Shown here piece by piece: positions 9,264 to 35,190 of a stretch of DNA of 35,190 nucleotides. The notes beneath the pieces are model-generated. The model searched no databases. It worked only from the letters and a program-made list of their open reading frames with translations, and was not told the DNA's origin. The stretch lies in contig JAERSW010000061.1 in NCBI GenBank assembly GCA_016845305.1, forward strand, positions 1 through 35,190. The letters run 5' to 3'. Source of the stretch: Acidimicrobiales bacterium. Its GTDB lineage: Bacteria > Actinomycetota > Acidimicrobiia > Acidimicrobiales > MedAcidi-G1. How positions within the stretch are numbered: the first letter of the stretch is position 1; each line of letters opens with the position of its first letter. A program made the translations under genes and the position numbers.

Positions 9264-10397
9264 TCAGAATCCGCCGTCGTAGGGAACCTCGAGCGTGCCC
9301 GCATTGAGCGCCGCGATCGCCTCGTCATAGGCCGCGAGCACGTCAGAGGGCACCTCGCCCGCATACCCGGGATTGAGGATCACTTCCACGGCTCCCGACG
9401 CCACGCCGTGACGGTAGAGCTGCCCGGGGTTGAATGTGCCAGCCTCAATGTCGGCCACCATTGCTTCCCAGACCACGTCTGTGTGCCAGACCACCGACGT
9501 CAGGACTACCTCGGTGTTCACCACCGACATGTCTCCGACGTAGCCGATCACCGACAGTCCATTCTCGGCGGCAGCTTCGATCGCACCAAGGGCTGGTCCC
9601 TGGCCACAGGTCGAGAACACATCTGCGCCCTGCTCAGCCTGGGCGAGGACGGCCTCCTTGTTGAGCGCCACGTCGTTCCAGTCTCCAGAGGCTGCCGTTT
9701 GCAAGGCGATGGTGGGATCGACGCTCTGGGCCCCGGCGATGAACGCCGCGTGCATGGCATGACAGACGGGGACGTCCTGGCCCGACAGCGAACCGAGTAC
9801 GCCGGTCTCTGTCACGCCAGCGGCGAGAATTCCGGCGAGGTAGGACCCTTCGTAGAACGGTTGGTCGTAGTCGGCGACGTTGTCTGATGTGCCGCCGATT
9901 CCTCCAGCCCAGGCGAAGTTCACGTCGGCGTTTTCGGGTCCGAGCGTCTGCAAGATGGCATCCATGTAGTCGAAGCCGTGGCCGATGACGAGATCAGCGC
10001 CGTCGTCGATCACGCCCTTGGCAGCGCGGATGAACCCGTCGGCCTCGAGGCCAACGTTCTCCTGCGAGATCAGGTTGATCCGTCCGGCGGCCTCGAGCGC
10101 TTGCGCTCCTTCGAGGGCCCGCTGGTTCCAGGACAGGTCGTTCGCCGCGAAACCAAGAAGGAGCGCGACGGTGACAGGTTGATCGTCGCCTGTCGGCTTC
10201 TCAGCCGCGGGTTCATCGGCCGCGGGTTCATCGGCCGCGGGTTCTTCGGTCGCCGGTTCTGCGGCCGTGGGCTCTTCGGCCGACGGCTCCTCAGCAGCAG
10301 GCTGTTCAGCCGATGTGTCGTCATCGTCACCACAGCTTGTGGCAACGAGCGCGAACAGAAGAAACGTCGCGACTATCCATCGCAAGCGAGTCTGCAT
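9264..10397 (-). CDS. BMP-family ABC transporter substrate-binding lipoprotein
   Basis: This is a 377-aa periplasmic-binding protein of the BMP/PnrA (basic membrane protein, nucleoside-binding) family. A lipoprotein signal peptide (MQTRLRWIVATFLLFALVA) ends in TSC with lipidated C22. A flexible Glu/Pro/Ala linker (about 27-75) built from five-residue repeats follows. The binding domain starts at VTVALLLGFAANDLSW and includes DGADLVIGHGFDYMD and VIGYVGDMS. The start at ATG 10397 is backed by AAGGGGGGAGAT. BMP proteins bring nucleosides, purines or related molecules to a two-permease plus double-ATPase importer, which is encoded at 14492-18061. It has its own palindromic promoter and a hairpin after it. 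Confidence 0.9.
   Translation of the reverse strand: MQTRLRWIVATFLLFALVATSCGDDDDTSAEQPAAEEPSAEEPTAAEPATEEPAADEPAADEPAAEKPTGDDQPVTVALLLGFAANDLSWNQRALEGAQALEAAGRINLISQENVGLEADGFIRAAKGVIDDGADLVIGHGFDYMDAILQTLGPENADVNFAWAGGIGGTSDNVADYDQPFYEGSYLAGILAAGVTETGVLGSLSGQDVPVCHAMHAAFIAGAQSVDPTIALQTAASGDWNDVALNKEAVLAQAEQGADVFSTCGQGPALGAIEAAAENGLSVIGYVGDMSVVNTEVVLTSVVWHTDVVWEAMVADIEAGTFNPGQLYRHGVASGAVEVILNPGYAGEVPSDVLAAYDEAIAALNAGTLEVPYDGGF
10196..10315. repeat. 15-bp tandem repeat encoding the BMP linker
   Basis: Eight imperfect 15-bp units run from 10196 to 10315. Two units are identical (GTTCATCGGCCGCGG at 10211 and 10226). On the coding strand each gives about EPAAD or EPTAE. Such repeats make the length of the linker after the lipid anchor prone to change. 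Confidence 0.7.
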
Positions 10398-18648: not shown

Positions 18649-18675
18649 TGCCACTGGGTGGTGGCCTCGTCGACC

Positions 18676-19365
18676 ATGTCCGGCTACCGACCTGAGCATC
18701 TGGTCCTCATCCCCGGGGCGTACTCGACGAAGGCAACGTGGGATCTCCTGATTCCCCACCTCCCCGGCGGCGTCACCGCCCACCCCGTCACCTACCCGGC
18801 GATCGATGACCTCCACGGGATCGCCGATGCGCTGCTGGCCGACCTTCCCGAGCACTTCGCAGTCGCCGGCCAGTCGCTCGGCGGACAGGTGGCCCTGGCT
18901 GTCCACGACCGAGCGCCGGATCGCGTCGACAACCTCATCGTCATCGGCATGTCGGACGGGCCCGAGATCGACCAAGGCGTCAGCCAGTCCCTGCAGACCC
19001 AGAAGGCGGTCGGCTTCGATGCCTTCGCCGAGGGCTTCATCCACACCCTGGGATTCGAGGGGGCCGCTGCCGACGTGGCCCGGGCTCGCTTCCACGAATA
19101 CGGAGCGGAGCGCGCCGATGCCCATCTTCGGGCGATCCTGTCGCGACCCGACTGGTCTGACTCGCTGTCGGCTCTAGCGGTGCCATCCCTGTTCATCGGG
19201 ATGACCGCCGACCAGGTGGTCCCGACGCAGGGCGTCCGAGAACTGGCCGCGAGGGCAGCGGGATCCGACTACCGGGAGATATCCGACTGCGGCCACACGC
19301 CCCACGTCGAGCGACCCGCTGATCTGGCGGCCACCATCGTCGACTGGTGGGACTCCTTGGGCTGA
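18676..19365 (+). CDS. alpha/beta hydrolase, paralogue 1 of 3
   Basis: This compact 229-aa alpha/beta hydrolase shows the nucleophile elbow G-Q-S67-L-G, an acid candidate D179 (TADQVVP) and H207 in DCGHTPH. The ATG at 18676 (MSGYRPEHLVLIPG) is chosen because the two paralogues begin at the equivalent place. The GTG at 18658 would add six residues not shared in meaning. It resembles PGAP1/EstA-like and salicylate-binding-type esterases: short cap, HERP-type C-terminus. The substrate is unknown. The gene is about 60% like the one at 20104, and both share upstream sequence. Confidence 0.85.
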   Translation: MSGYRPEHLVLIPGAYSTKATWDLLIPHLPGGVTAHPVTYPAIDDLHGIADALLADLPEHFAVAGQSLGGQVALAVHDRAPDRVDNLIVIGMSDGPEIDQGVSQSLQTQKAVGFDAFAEGFIHTLGFEGAAADVARARFHEYGAERADAHLRAILSRPDWSDSLSALAVPSLFIGMTADQVVPTQGVRELAARAAGSDYREISDCGHTPHVERPADLAATIVDWWDSLG

Positions 19366-20075: not shown

Positions 20076-20103
20076 CCCCTGACGCGTGGTGGCCTTCGGC
20101 GCC

Positions 20104-20793
20104 ATGAGCGGATACCGACCCGACCACGTCGTCCTCCTGCCCGGCATCATGGCGATCGAAGCCTCGTGGGACCTCCTGGTGCCCCACCTCCCCGACGGCC
20201 CCGAGGTCCACCGCGCCGTGTACCCGGCCGTCGACGATCTGCTGGCTCTCGCAGACGCGGTCCTGGCCGACCTACCCGGACGGTTCGCCCTGGTCGGCCA
20301 CTCGTTCGGCGGACAGGTGGCCCTCGCCGTCCACCACCAGGCACCCGAGCGGGTCGAGAACCTGGTCGTCGTCGCCCAGACGGACGGGCCGGAGTTGGAC
20401 GCCATCGTCACCGGAACCCGCTCCGTGCTCGACGAGCACGGCTTCGACGGCGTCGTAGCGGGCTTCATCCAGAACCTGGGGCTCGAGGGCGACGCGGCCG
20501 ACCTGGCCGACGGCCGCATGCGCGAGTACGGCGAGGCCCGCTTTCGGGCGCACGGCTCGGCGGCCCTGACCCGGCCCGACTGGTCGGCGTCGCTGGACGC
20601 ACTGGCCGTCCCGTCGCTCTTCGTCGGCCTCACCGACGACCAGATGATCCCCGCGGAAGGGGTCCGTGCCCTGGCCGCCCGGGCCACCGGCTCCACCTAC
20701 GTGGAGATCCCCGACTGCGGTCACGCCGTGCACGTGGAACGACCCGCCGAACTGGCCGCCGCCATCGTCGGCTGGTGGGACGCCCTGGGCTGA
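20104..20793 (+). CDS. alpha/beta hydrolase, paralogue 2 of 3
   Basis: This 229-aa protein is collinear with the one at 18676. It has the elbow G-H-S67-F-G, acid candidate in LTDDQMIP, and histidine in DCGHAVHVERP. Length, start (MSGYRPDH) and end (GWWDALG) match its paralogue residue for residue. It ends two bases from the convergent ZIP gene. Function beyond an esterase/hydrolase fold cannot be inferred. Confidence 0.85.
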   Translation: MSGYRPDHVVLLPGIMAIEASWDLLVPHLPDGPEVHRAVYPAVDDLLALADAVLADLPGRFALVGHSFGGQVALAVHHQAPERVENLVVVAQTDGPELDAIVTGTRSVLDEHGFDGVVAGFIQNLGLEGDAADLADGRMREYGEARFRAHGSAALTRPDWSASLDALAVPSLFVGLTDDQMIPAEGVRALAARATGSTYVEIPDCGHAVHVERPAELAAAIVGWWDALG

Positions 20794-25640: not shown

Positions 25641-26123
25641 TCAGTCCACGGTCGTCACCACCGGGTCGGGCGACGCCCAGGCCTCCCTCACCGCCCTGGT
25701 GAGGCTGCGGCGGGTCAAGGGCGAGTGGACCGGGTGCGTGCCGACCAGCAGCTCGTTCAGCGACGCGACCTTCGGCTTCGGCACCTCGACCACGATCGGC
25801 GTCGACGGATGTCGCCGCTTCAGGGCCCGCAGCACCGTCTGGTTCTCGGGATCCGAGATCCGCAGTGAGAACAGGATCACGTCGGCGAGGCTCGCCGCCG
25901 GACACCCTTCGCCCGCCACCAACGGGCACCGGGACCCCGGATGGTCGTCCGGACCCCCACAGCCCACCGCCTCGAAGCCGGCTTCCTCCAGCACCTGGAC
26001 CATCGAGTCGCGCACGGCCCCGTCGGACTCCTCGACCAGCACCCGTGGGTCGGTCCGCCACCGGCTGAAGCGGGGCGCCTCGAACCGTCGGTTGAACCTC
26101 ATACGACGCAGCACGTCATTCAC
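25641..26123 (-). CDS. receiver-like protein lacking the phospho-Asp (pseudo-receiver 1)
   Basis: This 160-aa protein looks like a response-regulator receiver fold without output domain. It has DPRVLVEESDGAVRDSMVQV at the N-terminal strand/helix. At ADVILFSLR the phosphorylatable Asp of a receiver would follow the hydrophobic strand, but S86 is found. It is paralogous to the protein at 31968 (shared PRV.., DV.F.SFR/SLR, W(A/S)xPDP tail). GTG 26123 has AGGA spaced five bases. It is 21 bp downstream of the cupredoxin gene on the same strand, and its paralogue sits in front of nirK, so these proteins appear linked to copper redox carriers. No known family name. Confidence 0.6.
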   Translation of the reverse strand: MNDVLRRMRFNRRFEAPRFSRWRTDPRVLVEESDGAVRDSMVQVLEEAGFEAVGCGGPDDHPGSRCPLVAGEGCPAASLADVILFSLRISDPENQTVLRALKRRHPSTPIVVEVPKPKVASLNELLVGTHPVHSPLTRRSLTRAVREAWASPDPVVTTVD

Positions 26124-26144
26124 CCCTTTCCTCGCCAGGTCCCA

Positions 26145-26609
26145 TCACGAGACCGACAGCTCCCCGACCATCCCGGCCTCGCGGTGGCCCGGGATGCTGC
26201 AGTACAGGACGTAGCGCCCCGGGGCGAGGCGCACGGAGCCCTCGTCCACATCGCCGGGATGCGCCCGCAGCTCGAAGTCGTCGACACCCTCGATCCGCAG
26301 GTCGTGGAACGTGGCACCGTCGTTGCGCATCCGCAGCGTCACCTCGGCACCCGACTCGATCCGGGCCGGCGTGTAGGAGAACTCGTCGGCCACCACCAGG
26401 CCGTCCCCGCCCGGATCGGTGGAGCCGCCGTCGTCGCCGCCATCCGACAGGGCGGCCAGCACCAGCAGCCCCACGGTCAACACCAGGACGAACCCGATGA
26501 ACCCCGGGAGGATGGCGAACTCCCACGCCAGACGACCCGACGGGCTGGCGCCGGTCCGCCGGGATCGACGCACGGGGACCGGGAGTTTCGACGGACTCGT
26601 GGTGGGCAT
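26145..26609 (-). CDS. membrane-anchored blue copper protein (cupredoxin)
   Basis: This 154-aa protein has an Arg-rich N-terminus, one transmembrane helix (about 31-54) and a short Gly/Asp linker. A plastocyanin-like domain (about 72-154) carries all four type 1 copper ligands: H102 in TFHDLRIEG, and C137, H142 and M147 in YCSIPGHREAGM. The positive-inside rule puts the copper domain outside the membrane, where AioBA-type enzymes and NirK work. It is a likely one-electron shuttle between them or to a terminal oxidase. The start ATG 26609 has TACGTT six bases upstream. Confidence 0.87.
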   Translation of the reverse strand: MPTTSPSKLPVPVRRSRRTGASPSGRLAWEFAILPGFIGFVLVLTVGLLVLAALSDGGDDGGSTDPGGDGLVVADEFSYTPARIESGAEVTLRMRNDGATFHDLRIEGVDDFELRAHPGDVDEGSVRLAPGRYVLYCSIPGHREAGMVGELSVS

Positions 26610-26615
26610 GGCCTC

Positions 26616-26621
26616 AACGTA
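26616..26621 (-). promoter_or_regulatory. leaderless -10 (TACGTT) of the cupredoxin gene
   Basis: On the minus strand TACGTT is followed by six bases and the ATG at 26609. Two GGGACC-type sites lie 24 and 109 bp further upstream. Confidence 0.5.
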
Positions 26622-26644
26622 CGAATCCCGCCGGAGGCCGGTCA

Positions 26645-26658
26645 GGGCCGAAGGTCCC
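26645..26658 (-). promoter_or_regulatory. DevR-like box A
   Basis: The minus strand reads GGGACCTTCGGCCC, close to the actinobacterial DosR/DevR half-palindrome (GGGACTnnnGTCCC). It is in the 196-bp divergent region between the cupredoxin and aioB genes. Confidence 0.5.
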
Positions 26659-26729
26659 GACCTTTCAGCCACCCTCCGAGACCGTCTCCCTGACCATGCC
26701 CGGCAGCCGGCCGGGAACGTGACGACAAG

Positions 26730-26743
26730 GGGACCTTCGCCCC
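26730..26743 (+). promoter_or_regulatory. DevR-like box B
   Basis: GGGACCTTCGCCCC has the same ten-base core GGGACCTTCG as sites A and C. It lies 63 bp before the aioB start. Confidence 0.5.
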
Positions 26744-26805
26744 TGATCGCCGTCGACCACCCTCCGTACCGTCCGATCGACCAGCCACGTGCCGATCGGA
26801 GTGCC

Positions 26806-27357
26806 ATGCCCCTCACCCGCCGAGAGTTCATGATCGCCGGCAGCGCCATCGGCGCCGCCCTCGGAGGCGGCATCGTCGCCCCGGTCGCCCTCACCTGGGA
26901 ACGCGACGCCTCCGGTGACGTCGCCGCGGTCACCGCCCGGTTCCCCGAACGGACGGTCGGCCGGTGGTCCGAGCTGGTCGTCGGCGAGTCCACCACGTTC
27001 GACTACCCCGCCGAGGGCCAACCCAACGTGCTGGTCCGCGTCGGTCGACCGGTCGCCCACGGCATCGGGCGCGAGCACGACCTCGTCGGCTTCTCGTCGA
27101 CCTGCACCCACATGGGTTGCCCACTCACCGAGTACCGCGCCGACACTGCCACCCTCGGCCCCTGCCCGTGCCATTTCACGACGTTCGACCTGGCTGCCGA
27201 CGGCATCCCGGCCTTCGGCCAGGCCACCCAGCACCTGTCGCGGGTGCTCCTCCGCCTCGACGGCGACGAGGTCGTCGCCTTCGGGCTCCGCCGCCCCATC
27301 TACGGCCACGCCGATCCGCTGCACGGCGTGGGCGTCCGAGTCCTGGCGTCGACGTGA
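26806..27357 (+). CDS. aioB: AioB-like Rieske subunit, Tat-exported
   Basis: This 183-aa protein is the Rieske iron-sulfur subunit of an arsenite-oxidase-family enzyme. The Tat signal is TRREFMIAGSAIGAALGGG. The [2Fe-2S] ligands are C100-x-H102 and C120-x2-H123, with C105 and C122 placed for the family's disulfide (CTHMGCPL, then CPCHFTTFD). In AioAB it accepts electrons from the molybdenum subunit and gives them to cytochrome c or a cupredoxin. ATG 26806 has GGAG six bases upstream. Its stop overlaps the start of the large-subunit gene (GTGA). The Tat signal on the small subunit would carry the large subunit, which has none, across the membrane. Confidence 0.9.
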   Translation: MPLTRREFMIAGSAIGAALGGGIVAPVALTWERDASGDVAAVTARFPERTVGRWSELVVGESTTFDYPAEGQPNVLVRVGRPVAHGIGREHDLVGFSSTCTHMGCPLTEYRADTATLGPCPCHFTTFDLAADGIPAFGQATQHLSRVLLRLDGDEVVAFGLRRPIYGHADPLHGVGVRVLAST

Positions 27358-29858
27358 CCGCCACGGTCCCCATCCCGCCGCCGGACGCCACGTCGTCCAC
27401 GACCTGCTGCGAGTACTGCCCCATGGCCTGCGGCTACCGGGTCTTCACGTGGCCGCTGGGCAGCGACGGCGGCCCTGCCGCTGCCGACAACGCCCTCGGC
27501 CGGGACCTGCCCGTCGGCCCACTGGCCGGCGGATGGACCACGGAGAACATGCACACCGTCGTGCGCGTCGACGGCGAGGAACGCAACTGCGTCGTCCTCC
27601 CCGACCCCGACGCCACCGTCGTCAACCCGGGTGGCGGCCACTCGGTCCGCGGCGGCGCGCTGGCCCGCAAGCTGTACCGACACGACGGCCCGACGTCGGA
27701 CCGGCTCACCACCCCACTGCTCCGCGTCGACGGCACCCTCGTCCCCGTCCCGTGGGACCTCGCCCTCGACCTGGTCGCCGACCTGTCACGCCACGTCGTC
27801 GACCTCCACGGTCCGCTGGCGTGGGGCATGAAGATCTACTCGTACGAGTTCTTCGAGAACACGTACGCAGCCAGCAAGCTCGCGCTCGCCTCGATCCGCA
27901 CCCCGAACTGGTCACCACACCACGCTCCCGCCGAGGGCGACGACGTCCCGGGCCTCAGCGACGCCGGCATCGACGCCTTCGGCGCCTGCTTCGCCGACGA
28001 CCGGGCCGCCGAGGTGATCCTCATCGCCGGGTCCGACCCGTACGAGACGAAGTCGGTGCGGTTCACCCAGTGGCAGTCGGCTGGCGGCGCCCGCCTCGTC
28101 GTCGTCGACCCCCGTCGCACCTTCACGGCGGCCTGGGCCGAGGCCAACGGCGGCCTGCACCTCCAGGTCGAACCCGGCACCGACGCGTTTCTCTACTCGG
28201 CGATCGTCCGCGACGTCCTCGAGCACGGCTGGGAGGACCACGCCTTCGTCCGCGACCACACGGCGACCCGCGCCCTCCTCGACACCGAACCGAAGTGGCG
28301 CCGGGCCCGATTCGGACGAACCCGCGCCGAGCTCCTCGACGAGCTCCGCTCCGACCCCGACCTCTCCCTGACGGGTGCGGCCCGCATCACCGGCGTGCCG
28401 TCGGAGAAGATCCGCGAGGCGGCGCTGCTCCTGAGCGGAGGCACCGGCCCCCAGCCCCGCACCAGCGTCCTGTTCGAGAAGGGCGTCTACTGGACCCACA
28501 ACTACGAGAACACCGCGGCCATCGCGAACCTCGGCCTGGTGCTCGGGGCGACCGGCCGGGAGGGTCGGGCCACGGCCCGGATGGGCGGCCACCAGCGCGG
28601 TGGCGTCAAGGCCGCCGGCTACCCGCACGACCTGTCACCGCACTCCGTCGACGGACATCCCGTCGAGATGGACACCGAGCGGTGGCTGGTCGAGGGCAAC
28701 ACCCGTCTGCGGTGGGTGGTCGGCACCAACTGGCTGGGCGCCACGGCGGGCACCTCGGCGCTGCGGGCCCGCGTCGCCGAGCTGGTCGGCACCGGCGACC
28801 CGGTCACCGTCGCCGACCTCGACCACGCCCGTCAGCGCCTCGTGGAGCGGATCGACGCCGGTGGCATGGTCCTCGTCCACCAGGAGACCTACCCCAACGA
28901 CAGCACCCGGTACGCCGACGTGGTCCTCCCGGCGGCCACGTGGGGCGAGGAGGACTTCACCCGGGCCAACGCGGAGCGCCGGGTCCGCCTCTACCAGCGG
29001 TTCATGGATCCGCCCGGCGCCGCCCGGCCCGACTGGTGGATCTTCGCCGAGGTCGGCCGACGCATGGGCTACGACGGCTTCGACTGGCCGGACGCCAACG
29101 CCGTCGCCACCGAGGCGCTGCCCCGGACCGCCGGGAGCCGCAAGGACTGCGCGGTCCTCGTCGACGTGGCCGAGGCGTCCGGTCGTCGCGTCCACGAGGT
29201 GCTCGCCGACGTCGGCACCACCGGCTTCCAGGCGCCCCTGGGCCTCGACGGCGGCACGATCACCGAGACGCCCCGTCTGCACGCCGACCTGCGCTTCAAG
29301 ACCGACAGCGGCCGGGCCAACTTCGTCCACGTCGACCTCGACGCGGTGCGCACCCGCAACCGGGTCCTGGCCCCCCGACACGACCGGGGCGAGGTGTGGG
29401 TGTTGAACGGTCGGGTCAACGCGCTGTGGAACAACCTGTCCGACTACGTCCGTCGCCCCCTCGCCATGGAGCGCTGGCCGGCCAACCTGCTCGAGGTCAA
29501 CCCGCTCGACGCCCGGCGCTGGGGCCTGGACGCCGGCGACCTGGTGGCCGTCGAGAACGCCGAGGTGCTCGACCACGTCGGCGCCACCATCTCGGGTGGA
29601 TTCACCGCGGTCGTGTACCCGACCGACGTCGTCCCGCCCGGCGTGACGTTCACGTACTTCCTCTACCCGGGGTCCGACGCCAACGACGTGGTGGCCGCCG
29701 ACACGTCGTTGCAGCCGCTGAACCTCCGCTACCCGTTCAAGCTCGGTAGGGGCACCGTGCGCCGCCTCGGGCGCGCACCCGGAATCGAGGGCATGTCGTT
29801 CGCCCCCCGCAACCTCGTCCCGTCCACCGACACCGGAGCCCACGACCATGACCACTGA
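27354..29858 (+). CDS. aioA: AioA-like molybdopterin oxidoreductase (arsenite oxidase family)
   Basis: The 834-aa length fits AioA. The [3Fe-4S] ligands C19, C22 and C26 (CEYCPMACGYRV) and S97 in place of a fourth cysteine (HSVRGG) are as in arsenite oxidase. MKIYSYEFFENTYAASK and NPYES-like SDPYETKSV are family hallmarks. Of the arsenite-site residues, by my alignment from memory, H189, R409 and H413 are kept, but the Glu is Asp (D197), and GGHQ is followed by RGG instead of EGY. The substrate might therefore be arsenite, another oxyanion (iodate reductase IdrA is a close relative), or unknown. The last residues are His/Asp-rich (AHDHDH). Confidence 0.85.
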   Translation: MTATVPIPPPDATSSTTCCEYCPMACGYRVFTWPLGSDGGPAAADNALGRDLPVGPLAGGWTTENMHTVVRVDGEERNCVVLPDPDATVVNPGGGHSVRGGALARKLYRHDGPTSDRLTTPLLRVDGTLVPVPWDLALDLVADLSRHVVDLHGPLAWGMKIYSYEFFENTYAASKLALASIRTPNWSPHHAPAEGDDVPGLSDAGIDAFGACFADDRAAEVILIAGSDPYETKSVRFTQWQSAGGARLVVVDPRRTFTAAWAEANGGLHLQVEPGTDAFLYSAIVRDVLEHGWEDHAFVRDHTATRALLDTEPKWRRARFGRTRAELLDELRSDPDLSLTGAARITGVPSEKIREAALLLSGGTGPQPRTSVLFEKGVYWTHNYENTAAIANLGLVLGATGREGRATARMGGHQRGGVKAAGYPHDLSPHSVDGHPVEMDTERWLVEGNTRLRWVVGTNWLGATAGTSALRARVAELVGTGDPVTVADLDHARQRLVERIDAGGMVLVHQETYPNDSTRYADVVLPAATWGEEDFTRANAERRVRLYQRFMDPPGAARPDWWIFAEVGRRMGYDGFDWPDANAVATEALPRTAGSRKDCAVLVDVAEASGRRVHEVLADVGTTGFQAPLGLDGGTITETPRLHADLRFKTDSGRANFVHVDLDAVRTRNRVLAPRHDRGEVWVLNGRVNALWNNLSDYVRRPLAMERWPANLLEVNPLDARRWGLDAGDLVAVENAEVLDHVGATISGGFTAVVYPTDVVPPGVTFTYFLYPGSDANDVVAADTSLQPLNLRYPFKLGRGTVRRLGRAPGIEGMSFAPRNLVPSTDTGAHDHDH

Positions 29859-30159
29859 CCCACCAGCCCACCCACCGACGCGCATCGTCGAGACCCGCGC
29901 GGAACCCCGTCTGGTCGACGCCGACGGCGAACGGCGACTCCGGACCGTGGTGGCGGCCACCCTCGCCTCGGCCGTCGTCCTCACCGGGTTCCTCGCCCTC
30001 GTCACCTACCTCGTCGCCCCCGAGCACGGGGTGGTCGCCGCCCTCGCCGTCGGCGGCCTGTCGGGCATCTGGGTGTCGGTCCTGGGAGGCGGCGTGGTCG
30101 GCAACGGCATCCACGAAGCCCGGCACGAGCGGGCCGAACGTGGTAGGTCCGGGGCGTGA
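29848..30159 (+). CDS. small two-helix membrane protein in the aio operon
   Basis: The 103-aa protein has a hydrophilic N-terminus of about 30 residues and two transmembrane helices (about 33-57 and 62-83, the latter VVAALAVGGLSGIWVSVLGGG). It ends in a charged tail. The gene overlaps the end of aioA by 11 bp and the start of the response regulator by four, so it is translated with the module. I do not recognise the family. It could be a membrane docking partner for the exported enzyme or an accessory to signalling. Confidence 0.65.
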   Translation: MTTDPPAHPPTRIVETRAEPRLVDADGERRLRTVVAATLASAVVLTGFLALVTYLVAPEHGVVAALAVGGLSGIWVSVLGGGVVGNGIHEARHERAERGRSGA

Positions 30160-30800
30160 ACCTGCGCGTCTTCCTCGTCGACGACCACGACGTCGTCCGC
30201 CGCGGCCTGACCGCGCTGGTCGACGCCGAGGAGGACCTCAAGGTGGTCGGAACGTCGGGATCGGCCGCCGGAACGCTCGAGGCGATCGCCGACTGCCGGC
30301 CCGACGTGGCCGTGCTCGACGTCCGCCTCGGCGATGGCAACGGCGTGGAGGTGTGCCGCGACGTCCGCTCCGCCCACCCGGAGGTGGCGTGCCTGATCCT
30401 CACCTCCTTCGAGGACGACCAGGCCCTCGTCGAGGCCAGCCTGGCCGGAGCCGCCGGCTACGTCCTGAAGCGCGTCCAGGGTGGCGAACTGCTGTCGGCC
30501 ATCCGCCTCGTCGGGGCGGGACGCCGCCTCCTCGATCCCGGCACCACCCGACTGGCGCTGCGTCGACTCCGTGAGAGCGGCGAGGCGGCGGTCGGCGAGC
30601 TCTCCGGGCAGGAGCGCCGGATCTTCGACCTGATCGGCGACGGCCTGTCGAACCGGGAGATCGCGGCTCGCATGTACCTGGCCGAGAAGACGGTCAAGAA
30701 CTACATCACCAACCTGCTCCGCAAGCTCGGCATGTCGCGACGCACCGAGGCCGCAGCGTTCGCCGCCCGTCTCGACGAGCGCCGCAACGGACCGGGCTGA
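30156..30800 (+). CDS. NarL/DevR-type response regulator
   Basis: This 214-aa regulator has an N-terminal receiver domain with acidic pocket D9/D10 and phospho-acceptor D55 (VAVLDVRLGD), a later K105, and a C-terminal LuxR-type HTH (about 148-205: LSGQERRIFDLIGDGLSNRE, then MYLAEKTVKNYITNLLRKLG). The helix TVKNYITNLLRKLGM is like that of mycobacterial DevR/DosR. It starts at GTG 30156, overlapping the small membrane protein gene. It is the natural candidate to bind the GGGACCWTCG boxes in the two divergent promoters of this module. Its partner kinase is the convergent gene. Confidence 0.9.
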   Translation: MNLRVFLVDDHDVVRRGLTALVDAEEDLKVVGTSGSAAGTLEAIADCRPDVAVLDVRLGDGNGVEVCRDVRSAHPEVACLILTSFEDDQALVEASLAGAAGYVLKRVQGGELLSAIRLVGAGRRLLDPGTTRLALRRLRESGEAAVGELSGQERRIFDLIGDGLSNREIAARMYLAEKTVKNYITNLLRKLGMSRRTEAAAFAARLDERRNGPG

Positions 30801-30824
30801 CCACCGCCCCGACCCAGGCCAGCG

Positions 30825-31844
30825 TCAGGCGCCGGCGCCGGGCATGGGCACCGACCACTCCACCACCGTGCCGCCCATCGGGTTCGGGTAGGCGCTGAAC
30901 GTGCCGTCGTGGCGGGCGGCCCGATCGGCGAGGTTGGCCAGGCCGCTTCGACGGGTCGGCTCGTCGGCGATGCCGACCCCATCATCCACGATCTCCACCA
31001 CGAGGCGGTCGGCCACGTCGATCCGCAGGTCGACCGTCGAGGCCCCGGCGTGGCGGGCCACGTTGGTGAGTCCCTCGCGCACCACGGCGACCGCCTCCTC
31101 GACCAGGTCGTCCGGCACGCCGGTGTCGAGCGGCCCGGTGAAGTGGCAGCGCGGCTCGATGCCGAGCGTGCGGACCACGTCACCCACCAGGTCGTCGACC
31201 CGACTCCGCAGGCCCGACCGGGCGTGCACCGGCGACGACAGGTCGAAGATGACCGTCCGGATGGTCCGGATGGTCCCGTCGAGCGCGGCGACCACCTCGC
31301 CGAGGCGTTCGGGCTGCGGGCTGGTGGCCTGCAGGGCCTGCAGGCCGATGCCGGCGGCGAACAGCTCCTGAATGACGGTGTCGTGCAGTTCGCGGGCGAT
31401 CCGCTCGTGGTCCTCGGCCAGGTCGCGTGAGCGTTCGGCCCGGCGGAGGCGCTCCTCGGCATCGACCCAGTCGGTCATGTCCCGGACCGCCGCCAGCGTC
31501 CGTGTCCCGCCCTCGAACGGCGCCAGGCTGACGTGGACGGGGATCGACGTCCCGTCGGCCCGCTGTCCGAGCAGTCGACGCCCGATGCCCATGGGACGTG
31601 CCAGCGGATCACCCTCGAACGTGGCCCGATGGCCGACATGGACGTCGCGCAGGTCGTCAGGGACGAGGTCCTCCACGGACCGACCCATCAGGGCGTGCGC
31701 CGGATAGCCGAACAACAGGTGGGCCGCCTGGTTGGCGGCACGGATCCGTCCTCCCCGTTCGACGACGATCAGGGCGTCCGGGGACCCCTCCCAGAGTTCC
31801 TCGACCGAGACCCCGTAGGTCGGCTCCGCTGGCGCCCGCTCCAC
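30825..31844 (-). CDS. PAS sensor histidine kinase, DevS-like
   Basis: This 339-aa kinase has an N-terminal PAS domain (about 13-125), a HisKA_3 dimerisation region with phospho-acceptor H154 (ERIARELHDTVIQELFA) and a HATPase_c domain (REGLTNVARHAGAS, DDGVGI). There is no membrane helix, so it senses a cytoplasmic signal. The HisKA_3 block is like DevS/DosT, but the heme-binding GAF domains are absent. It is convergent with the response regulator and diverges from the pseudo-receiver/nirK operon over a region with two DevR-like boxes. The GTG start at 31844 has TACGCT six bases upstream. Confidence 0.9.
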   Translation of the reverse strand: MERAPAEPTYGVSVEELWEGSPDALIVVERGGRIRAANQAAHLLFGYPAHALMGRSVEDLVPDDLRDVHVGHRATFEGDPLARPMGIGRRLLGQRADGTSIPVHVSLAPFEGGTRTLAAVRDMTDWVDAEERLRRAERSRDLAEDHERIARELHDTVIQELFAAGIGLQALQATSPQPERLGEVVAALDGTIRTIRTVIFDLSSPVHARSGLRSRVDDLVGDVVRTLGIEPRCHFTGPLDTGVPDDLVEEAVAVVREGLTNVARHAGASTVDLRIDVADRLVVEIVDDGVGIADEPTRRSGLANLADRAARHDGTFSAYPNPMGGTVVEWSVPMPGAGA

Positions 31845-31850
31845 GGTTCG

Positions 31851-31856
31851 AGCGTA
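31851..31856 (-). promoter_or_regulatory. leaderless -10 (TACGCT) of the kinase gene
   Basis: The minus strand reads TACGCT, then six bases, then GTG at 31844. No ribosome site is visible. Confidence 0.5.
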
Positions 31857-31890
31857 CGACGGAGCGGTCGACGGCGCCCGGTGCCGAACC

Positions 31891-31904
31891 GGGACCTTCG
31901 TCCC
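31891..31904 (+). promoter_or_regulatory. DevR-like box C
   Basis: GGGACCTTCGTCCC is the most symmetrical copy, GGGAC-N5-TCCC. It lies 27 bp (start to start) from box D, in the divergent region between the kinase and the pseudo-receiver/nirK operon. Confidence 0.55.
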
Positions 31905-31917
31905 GACTTCGACGGCC

Positions 31918-31931
31918 GGGACGATGGTCCC
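31918..31931 (+). promoter_or_regulatory. DevR-like box D
   Basis: GGGACGATGGTCCC is an exact inverted repeat (GGGAC-N4-GTCCC). Its reverse complement, GGGACCATCGTCCC, matches boxes A-C at nearly every position. It lies 36 bp before the start at 31968. Confidence 0.55.
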
Positions 31932-31967
31932 TGTTCACGGGGACGTCGCTGGCCCGAGGCTCCACCC

Positions 31968-32426
31968 ATGGAACACGCCACGGACCAGCCCACCGATGTG
32001 CCCGTCGACGACGTCCCCGTGGCGCAGCCCCGCGTCGTGATCACCGGCCCCGACGACGCCCTCCGCGACACCGTCATGGACCTGCTGTCCGCCTCGGGCT
32101 TCGACGTCGTGGACTGCGAATGCCACGACGGTGACGACAGTTCTCCCCTGGCCGAGGCGGACGAGCGGATCCGACCGAGCGACGTCCTCTTCTTCTCGTT
32201 CCGAGAGGCCACCGAGGCCCGACGTGACGCCTGTCGCGCCGCCCGACGCTGCCACCCGAGGAACCCGGTCGTCATCGAGCTCCTGAACCCGCGGACGTTC
32301 CGCTACGCCGACCTCCTCCGTGGCGCCCGGATCGTCTGCGCCCCGGCATCCCGGGAGTCGTTGCGCGAGGCCGTCCTCGACGCCTGGTCGGCGCCCGACC
32401 CCATCTACGAGACCCTCCGGAGGTAG
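31968..32426 (+). CDS. receiver-like protein lacking the phospho-Asp (pseudo-receiver 2)
   Basis: This 152-aa protein is a paralogue of the one at 25641-26123. After a Pro/Val-rich lead it has QPRVVITGPDDALRDTVMDL, then SDVLFFSFRE, where S77 replaces the phosphorylated Asp, and the tail WSAPDPIYETLRR. It lacks an output domain. The start at ATG 31968 fits, with GAGGCT six bases upstream and boxes C and D before that. It ends four bases before the nirK-like gene, so the two are co-transcribed. It may sense something other than phosphate or act as a scaffold in control of copper enzymes. Confidence 0.6.
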   Translation: MEHATDQPTDVPVDDVPVAQPRVVITGPDDALRDTVMDLLSASGFDVVDCECHDGDDSSPLAEADERIRPSDVLFFSFREATEARRDACRAARRCHPRNPVVIELLNPRTFRYADLLRGARIVCAPASRESLREAVLDAWSAPDPIYETLRR

Positions 32427-32430
32427 CGCG

Positions 32431-33957
32431 ATGACCGGACCCGCCCGCCGACGAGGGGCCGTCCGGCTCCTCACCACCATCTTCTCGTTCGCCCTCGCCG
32501 CAGCGTCCTGCGGCACCACGTCCTCCGGCGATCCCGGTGCCGGGTCTCCCCGCCTGGCACCGAGCACCGGGATCGCCGGAACCTCCGCCCCGGGGGCGAC
32601 TGACCCGATCCTCCCCGACCTGGTCCCGGTCGCCGAACTGCCCGACGCCGGGGCCGACGAGATCCACGCGACCACCGCCCCGGCCGTCCCACCGGCCGCC
32701 GAGCGCACCGACCAGCGCCGCTTCGCCGTCCACCTCGAGGTCACCGAGGCGCTGTGCCCCCTCGACCCGGCCAGCGGCACGTCCACCGAGGTCTGGGGCT
32801 ACCGGATCGCCGGCAGCCACGACGACGTCTGCGGATCGCCGGGACCGGTCCTGCGCGGACGCGTCGGCGACCTGGCCGTGGTGACCCTCACCAACCCGGC
32901 CGCCAACCAACGGGCGCACAACATCGACTTCCACGCCGTCACCGGCCCAGGCGGAGGAGCGGCCGGGCTGACCGTCGGCCCCGGCGAGACCCGAACCATC
33001 GCCGTGCGGCTGCTCTACCCGGGGGCCTTCATGTACCACTGCGCCTTCGGCGACGTCCCCCGCCACATCGCCCACGGCATGTCGGGCATGTTCATCGTCG
33101 ATCCGGCCGGTCCGTTGCCTCCGGTCGACCATGAGTGGGCCGTCGTCCAGTCGGAGTGGTACGTCGGTCCCACCGGCGACGACGGCGAGGCGATCTACGA
33201 CCCCGTCGGCCTGTTCGACGAGGTGCCCCGCTTCGTGACCCTCAACGGGCGCACTGACGCCCTCGTCGACGATCGGGCCCTCCGGATGCGGGTCGGCGAG
33301 CGGGCCCGCCTCTATCTGGTGAACGCCGGTCTGAACCTGGCCTCCAACTGGCATCCCATCGGGTCGCACTGGGACTTGGTGTGGCCCGAGGGCGCCACCC
33401 ACCCGGCCAACCGGACGATCCGCGGCTCGCAGAGCACCCTGGTCGTCGCCGGTGGCGCGACCGTGACCGAGCTGGTGGGCGTGGTGCCCGCCACGGTGCT
33501 TCTCGTCGACCACGCACTGGTGCGGACGTTCGCCAAGGGGGCGATCGGCCACGTGGTGATCGACGGCCCCGGGAATCCCGAGGTCTACGCCGAGGTCGCC
33601 CCCGACGAAGCCCCGGCGGCCGCTCCACCCGACGCCGTCGATCCCGTCGCCGGGGAGGGTGCCGTCGTCATGCCTGCCGGAGCCTGGAACCCGGCCAATG
33701 CGGCGACCGCCTACCTGCCCGGCGACCTCGTGGTCCCGGCCGGCACCACCATCACCTGGCGCAACGACGACACCGTCGTCCACACCGTCACCTCCGGACC
33801 GGTCCGCGACAACCGGGCCACCCCGGACGGACGCTTCGATTCCGGCGACATCGACCCCGGCGGATCCTTCTCCCGGACGTTCGACGAGCCCGGGAGGTAC
33901 CCGTACCACTGTGCGCCGCACCCCTGGATGGCCGCCCGCATCGTCGTGACGAACTGA
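32431..33957 (+). CDS. nirK: copper nitrite reductase (NirK-like) fused to a C-terminal cupredoxin, lipoprotein
   Basis: The 508-aa protein has a lipoprotein signal (lipidated C27), a Pro-rich linker and the two cupredoxin domains of NirK. Type 1 copper: H163, C204, H212, M217. Type 2 copper: H168, H203, H361. Catalytic D166 lies in HNIDFHAVTG and H313 in PIGSHWDLVW. A third domain (about 415-508) has another complete type 1 site: H451, C494, H497, M500 (YHCAPHPWM). It should reduce nitrite to nitric oxide outside the membrane, with the tethered cupredoxin as built-in donor. GGAGG precedes ATG 32431. Confidence 0.88.
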   Translation: MTGPARRRGAVRLLTTIFSFALAAASCGTTSSGDPGAGSPRLAPSTGIAGTSAPGATDPILPDLVPVAELPDAGADEIHATTAPAVPPAAERTDQRRFAVHLEVTEALCPLDPASGTSTEVWGYRIAGSHDDVCGSPGPVLRGRVGDLAVVTLTNPAANQRAHNIDFHAVTGPGGGAAGLTVGPGETRTIAVRLLYPGAFMYHCAFGDVPRHIAHGMSGMFIVDPAGPLPPVDHEWAVVQSEWYVGPTGDDGEAIYDPVGLFDEVPRFVTLNGRTDALVDDRALRMRVGERARLYLVNAGLNLASNWHPIGSHWDLVWPEGATHPANRTIRGSQSTLVVAGGATVTELVGVVPATVLLVDHALVRTFAKGAIGHVVIDGPGNPEVYAEVAPDEAPAAAPPDAVDPVAGEGAVVMPAGAWNPANAATAYLPGDLVVPAGTTITWRNDDTVVHTVTSGPVRDNRATPDGRFDSGDIDPGGSFSRTFDEPGRYPYHCAPHPWMAARIVVTN

Positions 33958-33995: not shown

Positions 33996-34694
33996 ATGGC
34001 AGGGCCTCGACCGGACCACCTCGTCCTGATCCCCGGGGCGGGCTCGTTCGCCTCCATCTGGGACCCGGTCGTCGCCGGCCTCCCGAGCGGCATCACCGTC
34101 CATCCCGTCGACCACCTCGCGCTCGACGACCTCGGAGCGATCGCCCGGGCACTCGTCGGCGACCTGCCCGACCGGTTCGCCCTCATGGGCCACTCGTTCG
34201 GCAACCACGTGGCCCTCGCCGTCCTGGCGGCCGCCCCCGAGCGGGTCGAGAGCCTCGTGGTCGTGGCCACCTCGACCGGCCCGGAGATCGACGTGCGGAT
34301 GGACGCCATGCTGGCCCGCCTCGCCGACGAGGGCTACGACGCGGTCGTCGAGGGCTACCGCACCGCCTACCTCGACGCCGGCCAGGACCCGGCACTCGTC
34401 GACGAGATGGTCGGGACGATGCACGCCTACGGCGCCGAACGGTTCACCGCCAACATCCGGGCGCTGCGGAACCGACCCGACTGGGCCGATCCGCTTGGCG
34501 CCCTCACCGTTCCGTCGCTGTTCGTCGCAGCCGCGGACGACACCACCACGCCGCCGGCCGGCGTCCGCGCCCTCGCCGACCTGGCACCGGGCTCGACCTA
34601 CGTGGAGATCCCCGACTGCACCCACGCCGTCCCCACCGAGAAGCCGTCCGAGCTGGCCGCCATCGTCACCGACTGGTGGGCCGCCACGAGCTGA
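33996..34694 (+). CDS. alpha/beta hydrolase, paralogue 3 of 3
   Basis: This 232-aa member of the same family as 18676 and 20104 has S67 in G-H-S-F-G, AADDTTTPP for the acid, and histidine in DCTHAVPTEKP. Its opening MAGPRPDHLVLIPGAG aligns without gaps to the other two. The ATG 33996 is chosen on that basis; a longer frame upstream lies inside the nirK gene. It is 38 bp after nirK on the same strand. Esterase or acyl hydrolase activity is likely, substrate unknown. Confidence 0.85.
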   Translation: MAGPRPDHLVLIPGAGSFASIWDPVVAGLPSGITVHPVDHLALDDLGAIARALVGDLPDRFALMGHSFGNHVALAVLAAAPERVESLVVVATSTGPEIDVRMDAMLARLADEGYDAVVEGYRTAYLDAGQDPALVDEMVGTMHAYGAERFTANIRALRNRPDWADPLGALTVPSLFVAAADDTTTPPAGVRALADLAPGSTYVEIPDCTHAVPTEKPSELAAIVTDWWAATS

Positions 34695-34757: not shown

Positions 34758-34964
34758 ATGACGAAGCGACTGGTGGACATCGACGACGACCTCCTCGCCG
34801 AGGCCCGCGAGGCCCTCGGCACGGACACCATGAAGGCCACGGTGAACCAGGCGCTCAAGCGCGTCTCGGATGAGACCATCCTGCGTCGGCACGCCATCCG
34901 TCTCATGACCATGGAGGGCATGGATCTCGACGACCCCGAGGTCATGAAGGGCGCCTGGCGGTGA
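34758..34964 (+). CDS. vapB: VapB-type antitoxin
   Basis: This 68-aa antitoxin (DUF2191/VapB-like) has an N-terminal ribbon-helix-helix segment (TKRLVDIDDDLLAEAREALG, then TMKATVNQALKRV) and a C-terminal tail for toxin binding. Its stop overlaps the toxin start (GTGA). VapB represses its own promoter together with VapC. Confidence 0.88.
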   Translation: MTKRLVDIDDDLLAEAREALGTDTMKATVNQALKRVSDETILRRHAIRLMTMEGMDLDDPEVMKGAWR

Positions 34965-35190
34965 CGACCCCCCGGTACCTGGCCGACAAGAGCGCGCTCG
35001 TCCGCCAACCCGTGGACGAGGTCGCCGACCACCTCCTCCCCCGGATCGCCCTCGGCCTCGTGGCGACCTGCCCGATGGTGGACCTGGAGGTTCTCTACAG
35101 CGCGAGGAACGCCCGGGAGTACGCCCACATCGTCGAGGAACGGTCCCGCCACCCCCAGGTGACCATCGATCCGACGGTCACCGACCGGGC
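34961..35190 (+). CDS. vapC: VapC-type PIN-domain toxin, 3' part outside window
   Basis: The first 76 codons of a PIN-domain ribonuclease are present: opening TTPRYLADKSALVR with catalytic D9, and TCPMVDLEVLYSA with conserved E43. The rest of the acidic site would lie beyond 35190. The GTG start overlaps the vapB stop by four bases, which fixes the pairing. Confidence 0.85.
   Translation, partial: MTTPRYLADKSALVRQPVDEVADHLLPRIALGLVATCPMVDLEVLYSARNAREYAHIVEERSRHPQVTIDPTVTDR

Follow-up and report, generated by a model that had tools for sequence, protein, structure and literature searches.

The window analyzed here, a stretch of 35,190 nucleotides (contig JAERSW010000061.1) within the 2.92-Mb draft genome of an Acidimicrobiales bacterium, contains a module at positions 25,641-33,957 with genes for an arsenite oxidase (AioBA)-like pair of a Rieske and a molybdopterin subunit, a membrane-anchored cupredoxin, a two-component system, two receiver-like proteins and a copper nitrite reductase (NirK). 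Going by its sequence, the catalytic subunit is no arsenite oxidase by descent and belongs to a third clade of the AioA/IdrA family, beside the iodate reductase subunit IdrA. For the module as a whole, we see about an even chance that it is a redox module switched by low oxygen (O2) or nitric oxide (NO) and built around this exported oxyanion oxidoreductase, probably a reductase, with NirK acting in parallel.

Phylogenetic position and active site of the molybdoenzyme

The catalytic subunit scores 430 bits against the curated model TIGR02693 (cut-off 359) and the Rieske subunit 103 bits against TIGR02694 (cut-off 95.7). The traits of the AioA/IdrA family of MopB enzymes are present, namely the 3Fe-4S motif CxxCxxxC with a serine at the fourth position and a Rieske small subunit. 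By eye, a twin-arginine start is visible on the Rieske subunit and none on the catalytic subunit; the same arrangement is described for iodate reductase, in which IdrB has the twin-arginine translocation (Tat) signal and IdrA no signal of its own (PMC8692401). We rejected an assignment as arsenite oxidase by model name: the scores pass, but the same label is borne by a homologue from Azonexus that lies among two genes for cytochrome c peroxidases, one for a Rieske protein and moaA, the idrABP1P2 arrangement.

A scan of 84,980 species (one genome each) with two peptide patterns, which misses members without those peptides, found 86 relatives, of which 80 were kept, 25 of these with at least 50% identity. 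Their loci (L numbers; genomes carry G numbers) are stretches of 3-20 kb, several ended by contig edges, are partly redundant between sets (L007 and L047, for example, represent one contig) and had their genes called by a heuristic of our own. Linkage and carrier counts refer to the named loci and the window; trees, parsimony and active-site counts also include plasmid records and G181. Since most genomes are drafts, a missing match or a location on another contig carries little weight throughout. The enzyme is rare: at E ≤ 1e-60, relatives occur in 5 of 298 genomes of an order sample, including the window's own and the Idr-like one of G181, and at E ≤ 1e-100 in 16 of 395 genomes of a class sample, again with these two included. 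The Acidimicrobiia members encountered are nearly all metagenome-assembled.

Both trees were midpoint-rooted. In the tree of 82 rows, which omits the short or broken L061, L068, L106, L117, L121, L122 and L123, the 24-row window clade has a Shimodaira-Hasegawa-like approximate likelihood ratio (SH-aLRT) support of 99 and adjoins 54 IdrA-side rows (99), with the four true AioA (NT-26, Nitrobacter, Thermus and Acidiphilium) beyond a branch of support 100. The tree of 24 rows, the only one with a divergent Cytobacillus row, gave 91/92 for the window clade (not starred), 100/98 for the IdrA group, and 100/100 for the window clade together with IdrA against the four AioA and the Cytobacillus row. 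The window enzyme thus lies outside the AioA clade, represented by 4-5 reference rows, with a branch of 100 between them, and outside the IdrA clade as well, the two being neighbours with 99 each under midpoint rooting. The members of the window clade come mostly from Acidimicrobiia and Chloroflexota, including Dehalococcoidia.

The neighbourhood separates the two sister clades in the same manner. IdrP-like genes were found at none of the 26 window-clade loci (the window and 25 others, some of them short) and at 50 of 55 IdrA-side loci. Four of the five misses begin less than 1.1 kb from a contig edge; the fifth, L121, has 9 kb upstream without an IdrP match and no open frame for the enzyme. 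Parsimony over 76 rows requires one change in IdrP presence.

The substrate set of AioA is His, Glu, Arg and His, which we take to be residues 195, 203, 419 and 423, and all 24 clade rows have His, Asp, Arg and His instead. The letter after the first substrate histidine is H in 24/24 rows of the window clade, D in 54/54 on the IdrA side and N in 4/4 AioA. Where AioA has its glutamate, aspartate is fixed in the window clade (24/24), and the IdrA side varies (S 30, D 12, A 6, E 4, P 1, G 1). Because of the HH pair and the fixed aspartate, against HN and Glu in AioA and HD and a variable position in IdrA, the pocket matches neither AioA nor IdrA. Among 18 discriminating columns (fixed in the four AioA rows, at least 90% conserved in IdrA, and differing between them), the clade agrees with IdrA in 15, with AioA in none and with neither in three; for the window protein itself, the figures are 14, one and three. 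HQR is found in the window clade and in 53 of 54 IdrA-side rows, as opposed to HQE in AioA. The 3Fe-4S cysteines and the serine are kept in the window protein.

The carrier slot divergent from the Rieske gene

AioBA passes its electrons to cupredoxins or cytochromes c. Among 22 scorable loci including the window, the slot divergent from the Rieske gene is occupied six times by a membrane-anchored cupredoxin (the window, L046, L047, L052, L054 and L058) and seven times by a membrane-anchored single-heme cytochrome c (L048-L051, L056, L057 and L114). A motif scan recognized neither carrier in the remaining nine (L055, L059, L060, L063-L067 and L098), of which L098 has a heme protein downstream instead. 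The scoring left out L053, L061 and L062, which are cut too close, and L068. When the carriers of four relatives were searched with Pfam, those of L046, L050 and L051 passed a copper or cytochrome c cut-off, and that of L052 gave only a SoxE match below it. The small cupredoxin of the window likewise has weak SoxE and Copper-bind matches below the cut-off; its H...C-H-M set is kept, as is that of the C-terminal domain of NirK.

Carriers differ within two sister pairs (L051/L058 and L054/L056), and parsimony counts at least four exchanges over 13 rows. The strongest argument for the carrier being the redox partner of the enzyme is this exchange of one type for another at a constant position. 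As the initial annotation had proposed, the membrane-anchored cupredoxin is therefore the probable partner of the Rieske/molybdoenzyme pair.

A DevR/OsdR-type two-component system and its predicted sites

The best solved match of the response regulator is DevR from Mycobacterium tuberculosis (3c3w, E 2.4e-64), and the ATPase domain of the kinase matches DevS (E 5.5e-20) and DosT (E 6.2e-20). In Pfam-type searches, the regulator consists of Response_reg and GerE and the kinase of PAS, HisKA_3 and HATPase. With a receiver and LuxR-type helix-turn-helix closest to DevR and a DevS/DosT-like ATPase in the kinase, the pair is of the DevR/OsdR type. The sensor domain of DevS and DosT is a GAF domain; by reading, the kinases of L059 and L068 may be of the GAF type, too. 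A two-component system is linked to the enzyme at eight of the 26 clade loci (the window, L046, L047, L050, L051, L056, L059 and L068), which bears out the view that the module has its own.

Palindromes of the GGGNC-N4-GNCCC type, predicted binding sites, precede the presumable targets, and the intergenic regions of the module loci have such a palindrome in common. In the window, both exact GGGACN4GTCCC sites fall within the 123 bp separating the kinase gene from pseudo-receiver 2-nirK, and two sites with one mismatch lie between the cupredoxin and Rieske genes. The closest relative, L046, has four exact sites, all of them in its two promoters. For the degenerate motif GGGMCN4GKCCC, we counted 19 sites in the module promoters (20 regions from 16 loci, 3,283 bp in total) versus 5 in 263,499 bp elsewhere in these loci. 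Markov-resampled promoters contained 0.13 sites on average and 3 at most, none of 2000 trials reaching 19. The boxes are also present in the carrier promoters of L049, L052, L054, L056 and L058; five counted loci, L048, L050, L051, L057 and L114, have no such site.

The Streptomyces OsdR palindrome, AGGGCCGATCGGCCCT, reportedly agrees well with the DevR palindrome; a predicted OsdR site, AGGGACCTTCGGCCCC, lies upstream of narG2, and nar2, encoding the nitrate reductase Nar2, is down in an osdR mutant (PMC5069765).

NirK as a probable local addition

NirK of the window scores 221 bits against TIGR02376, below the curated cut-off of 296. Aligned with 1kbv and other solved NirKs, it retains the type-1 and type-2 copper positions, which presumably serve as ligands as in those structures, and the catalytic Asp and His. 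A Copper-bind match at its C-terminus marks a fused cupredoxin. The same C-terminal cupredoxin is present in all four NirK relatives scanned, which are located away from the module; since this form of NirK occurs elsewhere in related genomes, the fusion is not special to the module.

Among the 26 clade loci, nirK is linked to the enzyme in the window only, as far as the stretches of 3-20 kb reach. Apart from nirK, the whole module is present in L046 (78% identity), where the gene is absent after pseudo-receiver 2 and no match was found in the draft genome. A conserved linkage of nirK, considered as a candidate, was dropped, since none of the other 25 clade loci shows it within these stretches, several of which end at contig edges; the IdrA-side L080 has only a partial match of 82 amino acids. 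The gene set as a whole is only partly conserved in relatives, nirK being its least conserved member. NirK of this type occurs in five of ten clade genomes searched (G000, G052, G094, G581 and G582), four times on other contigs of these drafts; the draft genomes G096, G577, G578, G579 and G580 have no NirK match, although each carries the enzyme. A gene for a regulator that looks like the Rrf2 type is found near nirK in L166, L167, L171 and L172 (by reading), and a DevR-type box lies in the upstream window of two of nine other nirK loci. In L165, a DevR-type palindrome is located immediately 5' of a same-type nirK (around position 9537) in G128, a genome of the window's family without a match to the molybdoenzyme or to pseudo-receiver 1.

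Because nirK in the window follows pseudo-receiver 2, whose promoter holds the exact boxes, it likely shares the probable regulator of the module in this genome, and local recruitment into the module regulon is the best reading. The initial annotation had suggested that the Aio-type enzyme and NirK could form one exported chain, for example oxyanion oxidation coupled to nitrite reduction. The two exact boxes upstream of nirK support a link of another kind, one which that annotation had not given, namely a shared probable regulator. As a conserved chain the coupling is unsupported, since nirK is linked only in the window and absent in L046. The pattern that the initial annotation had named as refuting its proposal, relatives with the aio genes but mostly without nirK and the pseudo-receivers, is the one observed: all 25 other loci lack a linked nirK, and 22 of them lack a linked relative of pseudo-receiver 1.

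Pseudo-receivers and modules without the enzyme

The AlphaFold model of pseudo-receiver 1 shows a (beta-alpha)5 fold with a mean predicted local distance difference test (pLDDT) value of 74, and its best solved structural match is a receiver domain (Foldseek E 1.2e-6). All six aligned members have a serine (S86) where beta-3 ends, so the phospho-accepting aspartate is absent. Its three cysteines (CxGP...CxL...C) are kept in most aligned relatives. Linked relatives are found in L046, L047 and L050, and a relative of pseudo-receiver 2 occupies the same place in L046 with 57.5% identity. The pseudo-receivers are probably phosphorylation-independent signalling modulators, possibly metal-binding or redox-tuned.

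We dropped the idea that pseudo-receivers are specific to the module, as relatives occur in 32 of 298 order genomes; nine loci outside the window's family have other neighbours (by eye). L203, L204, L205, L207 and L210 represent a wider family of receivers without the phospho-accepting aspartate and with the CxGP...CxL...C cysteines. Near another pseudo-receiver in L163 (6108-9203, G581), we noticed by eye genes for a cupredoxin, a NosD-like protein and a multicopper protein.

Modules without the enzyme keep the order kinase, regulator, 2-TM (two-transmembrane) protein, cupredoxin and pseudo-receiver (L161, L201 and L202; Table 1). Homologues of the 2-TM protein occur in L046 and L047, and similar proteins, by eye, in these three loci. 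G181 encodes, on another contig, an Idr-like enzyme accompanied by two genes resembling cytochrome c peroxidases. In the Idr-like locus L009 (3027-9587) of this genome, two di-heme peroxidase-like genes precede the Rieske and catalytic subunits, and a small MOSC-like gene (by eye) comes after them.

Organization of the module

All nine open reading frames of the gene set described in the initial annotation are open and intact at their positions (Table 1). Judged from gene spacing, they form four transcription units with two divergent promoters. The leftward cupredoxin-pseudo-receiver 1 unit opposes the rightward Rieske-enzyme-2-TM-regulator unit, in which successive genes overlap by 4, 11 and 4 bp. 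The leftward kinase gene diverges from the rightward pseudo-receiver 2-nirK unit, with a 4-bp gap between its two genes, and converges with the regulator gene. Transmembrane segments and export signals were read by eye. The Rieske subunit matches the Pfam-type Rieske domain; both pseudo-receivers and the 2-TM protein had no family over cut-off in the profile search.

Table 1. Features of the module in the window and positions of related modules without the enzyme.
Feature	Position	Strand	Basis or remark
Pseudo-receiver 1	25641-26123	-	CheY-like fold without phospho-Asp; CxGP...CxL...C
Membrane-anchored cupredoxin	26145-26609	-	One N-terminal transmembrane segment; H..C..H..M type-1 Cu set (by eye)
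DevR/OsdR-type palindrome	26645-26658	n/a	One mismatch to GGGACN4GTCCC
DevR/OsdR-type palindrome	26730-26743	n/a	One mismatch to GGGACN4GTCCC; outside the GGGMCN4GKCCC count
Tat-Rieske [2Fe-2S] small subunit, AioB/IdrB-like	26806-27357	+	TIGR02694; TRREFM start by eye
AioA-like molybdopterin catalytic subunit, third AioA/IdrA clade	27354-29858	+	TIGR02693, trees, active-site counts
Small Gly-rich 2-TM membrane protein	29848-30159	+	No family above cut-off
DevR/OsdR-like (NarL/DevR-type) response regulator	30156-30800	+	Best solved match DevR 3c3w
Cytoplasmic PAS histidine kinase, DevS/DosT-like ATPase	30825-31844	-	PAS+HisKA_3+HATPase; PAS relatives in PDB include FixL
Exact DevR/OsdR-type box GGGACCTTCGTCCC	31891-31904	n/a	Motif scan
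Exact DevR/OsdR-type box GGGACGATGGTCCC	31918-31931	n/a	Motif scan
Pseudo-receiver 2, first gene of the nirK-holding unit	31968-32426	+	32-35% identity to pseudo-receiver 1
NirK with C-terminal cupredoxin, lipobox-like start (by eye)	32431-33957	+	TIGR02376 below cut-off; Copper-bind at C-terminus
Modules without the enzyme	L161 6041-9129; L201 5160-8269; L202 5512-8854		

Around the module, the window has an IS3-like transposase at its left edge (116-1069) and a short formate-dehydrogenase-like fragment (2435-2725), both by eye and possible signs of mobility or truncation. Three similar alpha/beta-hydrolase genes lie at 18658-19365, 20086-20793 and 33996-34694, the last directly 3' of nirK, and a VapB/VapC-like toxin-antitoxin pair (34758-35188, by eye) is cut by the window end. 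Elsewhere, the genome encodes five other Molybdopterin-family proteins, the fifth NuoG-like by reading; none of the four scanned, one of them in part, reached a nitrate reductase cut-off. An aa3-type oxidase is present, and a second, divergent COX1-like protein is encoded about 3 kb from its gene (G000:C42:48272-49486).

Proposed mechanism and alternative explanations

In the mechanism that we consider most likely, the PAS kinase would sense low O2 or NO, and the phosphorylated regulator would turn on, all together, the cupredoxin-pseudo-receiver 1 unit, the Rieske-enzyme-2-TM-regulator unit, the kinase and pseudo-receiver 2-nirK. The Tat system would export the Rieske and catalytic subunits; the cupredoxin would donate electrons to the Rieske subunit and thereby to the molybdenum site, where an oxyanion, iodate or similar, would be reduced. 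In the window species, NirK would serve as a second terminal reductase in parallel. The promoter-level steps rest on sequence; sensing, direction and substrate we infer. In an aerobic bacterium, idr genes were highest in static culture with iodate (PMC11445184).

Several observations weigh against this mechanism. The sequence does not fix the direction of electrons through the enzyme. The substrate histidines and arginine are those of AioA, and the aspartate is nearer to the glutamate of AioA than is the serine that prevails on the IdrA side. IdrP1/P2, tied to iodate reduction in published models (PMC8692401), are missing from the entire window clade. On the sensor side, the best PAS match is a multi-sensor kinase (10jx, E 9.8e-16), with FixL second (E 3e-13). 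The histidine aligning with that of FixL, presumably the one with a heme role, is kept in eight of 11 aligned kinases (missing in L056, L059 and L068), and the arginine of FixL is found in the window kinase only. Heme and O2 sensing are thus guesses, and we no longer assert a heme sensor of the FixL type.

The box count calls for similar care. The promoter regions were chosen and bounded by eye once the motif was known, two of them, the stretches between the cupredoxin and pseudo-receiver genes of L161 and L201 with a single site apiece, were included on account of sites already found there, and the count omits the siteless L059 and the loci without a recognized carrier. Given this post hoc choice and the relatedness of the loci, the figures do not represent independent observations. 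L050, L051 and L059 have a two-component system but no box in the tested promoter. Genome-wide, there are seven exact boxes versus four in a reversed control, and the window has nine sites with up to one mismatch where 5.3 are expected. With totals this near to control and expectation, only the location of the boxes is informative, and their use as a genome-wide regulon marker was abandoned. Of the five exact boxes outside the window, four lie within called frames and one (C68) beside divergent gene starts.

If electrons ran in the opposite direction, the enzyme would be a divergent arsenite oxidase that serves detoxification or energy gain. Electrons would then flow from arsenite (As(III)) through the Rieske subunit and onward by cupredoxin or cytochrome c into the aa3-type oxidase, or into NirK at low oxygen. 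Both model cut-offs, the conserved substrate residues together with the acidic one, and the oxidase in the genome would fit. So would the homologues of Halorubrum, known as arsenite-oxidizing, and of a Dehalococcoidia bacterium, described as peroxidase-less outgroups of IdrA (PMC8692401), as the window clade likewise holds Chloroflexota and Dehalococcoidia. We nonetheless regard arsenite oxidation, which the initial annotation had given as an example for the Aio-type enzyme, as rather unlikely: both trees put the enzyme with IdrA rather than with AioA, the model name does not discriminate, as seen with Azonexus, and the DevR-type switch suggests low oxygen over arsenic. By eye, no arsenic genes are present in the window or in the part of the related loci inspected. 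The genome gave no match to acr3, other arsenic genes not having been searched, which weakens arsenite oxidation without excluding it.

A different view is suggested by G181, G247 and G156 of the window's family, which carry the module minus the Rieske-enzyme pair between the 2-TM and cupredoxin genes; G247 and G156 have no enzyme match at E ≤ 1e-60. Because these relatives retain it without the enzyme, the carrier with its two-component system can serve something else. The cupredoxin, 2-TM protein, two-component system and pseudo-receivers might then be the real module, a low-oxygen or NO carrier for another partner, with the Rieske-enzyme pair and NirK as passengers gained and lost. That the carrier-plus-switch unit can live alone counts against a single dedicated chain. 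However, the enzyme clade keeps a carrier in the divergent slot far outside the window's family, and the boxes of that promoter recur there as well (in the five carrier promoters named above), so enzyme, carrier and box travel together. We find this passenger scenario quite unlikely.

Very unlikely, in our view, is an exported dissimilatory couple in which oxyanion oxidation feeds NirK through the cupredoxin. The close spacing of nirK behind pseudo-receiver 2, the DevR-type boxes shared with the rest of the module in the window genome, and the fused cupredoxin of NirK as a possible electron acceptor speak in its favor. It is contradicted by the single linked case among 26 loci, by the five enzyme-bearing draft genomes without a NirK match, and by the NirK relatives, which have their own fused cupredoxin and sit away from the module.

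Extending the reductase mechanism, we tentatively propose, as a possibility well short of probable, a third functional AioA/IdrA class: a low-oxygen, DevR-type-switched, exported oxyanion reductase wired by cupredoxin or cytochrome c, whose substrate would be neither arsenite nor simply iodate, here with a nitrite reductase on the same switch and pseudo-receivers in its signalling.

Relation to described systems

IdrABP1P2 of Pseudomonas sp. SCT and Denitromonas resembles the window system in its neighbouring catalytic clade, Tat-Rieske subunit, HQR motif and 3Fe-4S cysteines with serine. The window clade differs in lacking IdrP1/IdrP2 (26/26 loci), in HH instead of HD, and in the fixed aspartate where IdrA varies; the window type also encodes its carrier, a cupredoxin or cytochrome c, divergently from the Rieske gene and has predicted DevR-type control. 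With AioBA of Rhizobium NT-26 and others, it shares the family, the Rieske partner and the substrate His, Arg and His, whereas the enzyme lies outside the AioA group, with Glu replaced by Asp, HN by HH and HQE by HQR, and the module shows, by eye, no aioXSR-like set or ars genes. Reyes-Umana et al. noted an unknown clade outside IdrA with homologues from Halorubrum and a Dehalococcoidia bacterium (PMC8692401). Compared by description only, it takes the same place relative to IdrA, has Chloroflexota members and lacks cytochrome c peroxidases; unlike for the window clade, the accessible description mentions neither regulation nor a carrier swap.

The DevR/DevS-DosT system of Mycobacterium and OsdR/OsdK of Streptomyces share the regulator, the kinase ATPase and the palindrome type, and the link of OsdR to respiratory genes (Nar2, PMC5069765) resembles that of the window module. 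In contrast to these systems, the window system has a PAS domain as its sensor, and its predicted targets at this locus comprise a MopB enzyme, a cupredoxin and nirK. A further redox domain fused to the NirK core is likewise known from three-domain copper nitrite reductases (PMC6400189, PMC13324648); the window NirK differs in that its additional cupredoxin is C-terminal. In the literature searched on iodate reductase, aioA, nirK, Acidimicrobiia and DevR, with subscription papers largely outside its scope, we found no description of this gene set.

Implications

Curated models give the enzyme the name of arsenite oxidase. Should it instead reduce iodate or another oxyanion at low oxygen, gene surveys credit the wrong cycle. 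The module provides direct predictions through the carrier swap at one slot, the DevR-type switch and the nitrite reductase added in one genome. If our interpretation is correct, DevR/OsdR-type control would extend from mycobacteria and Streptomyces to Acidimicrobiia. As the clade lies between arsenite oxidation and iodate reduction, its substrate bears on the functional change within the AioA/IdrA family.

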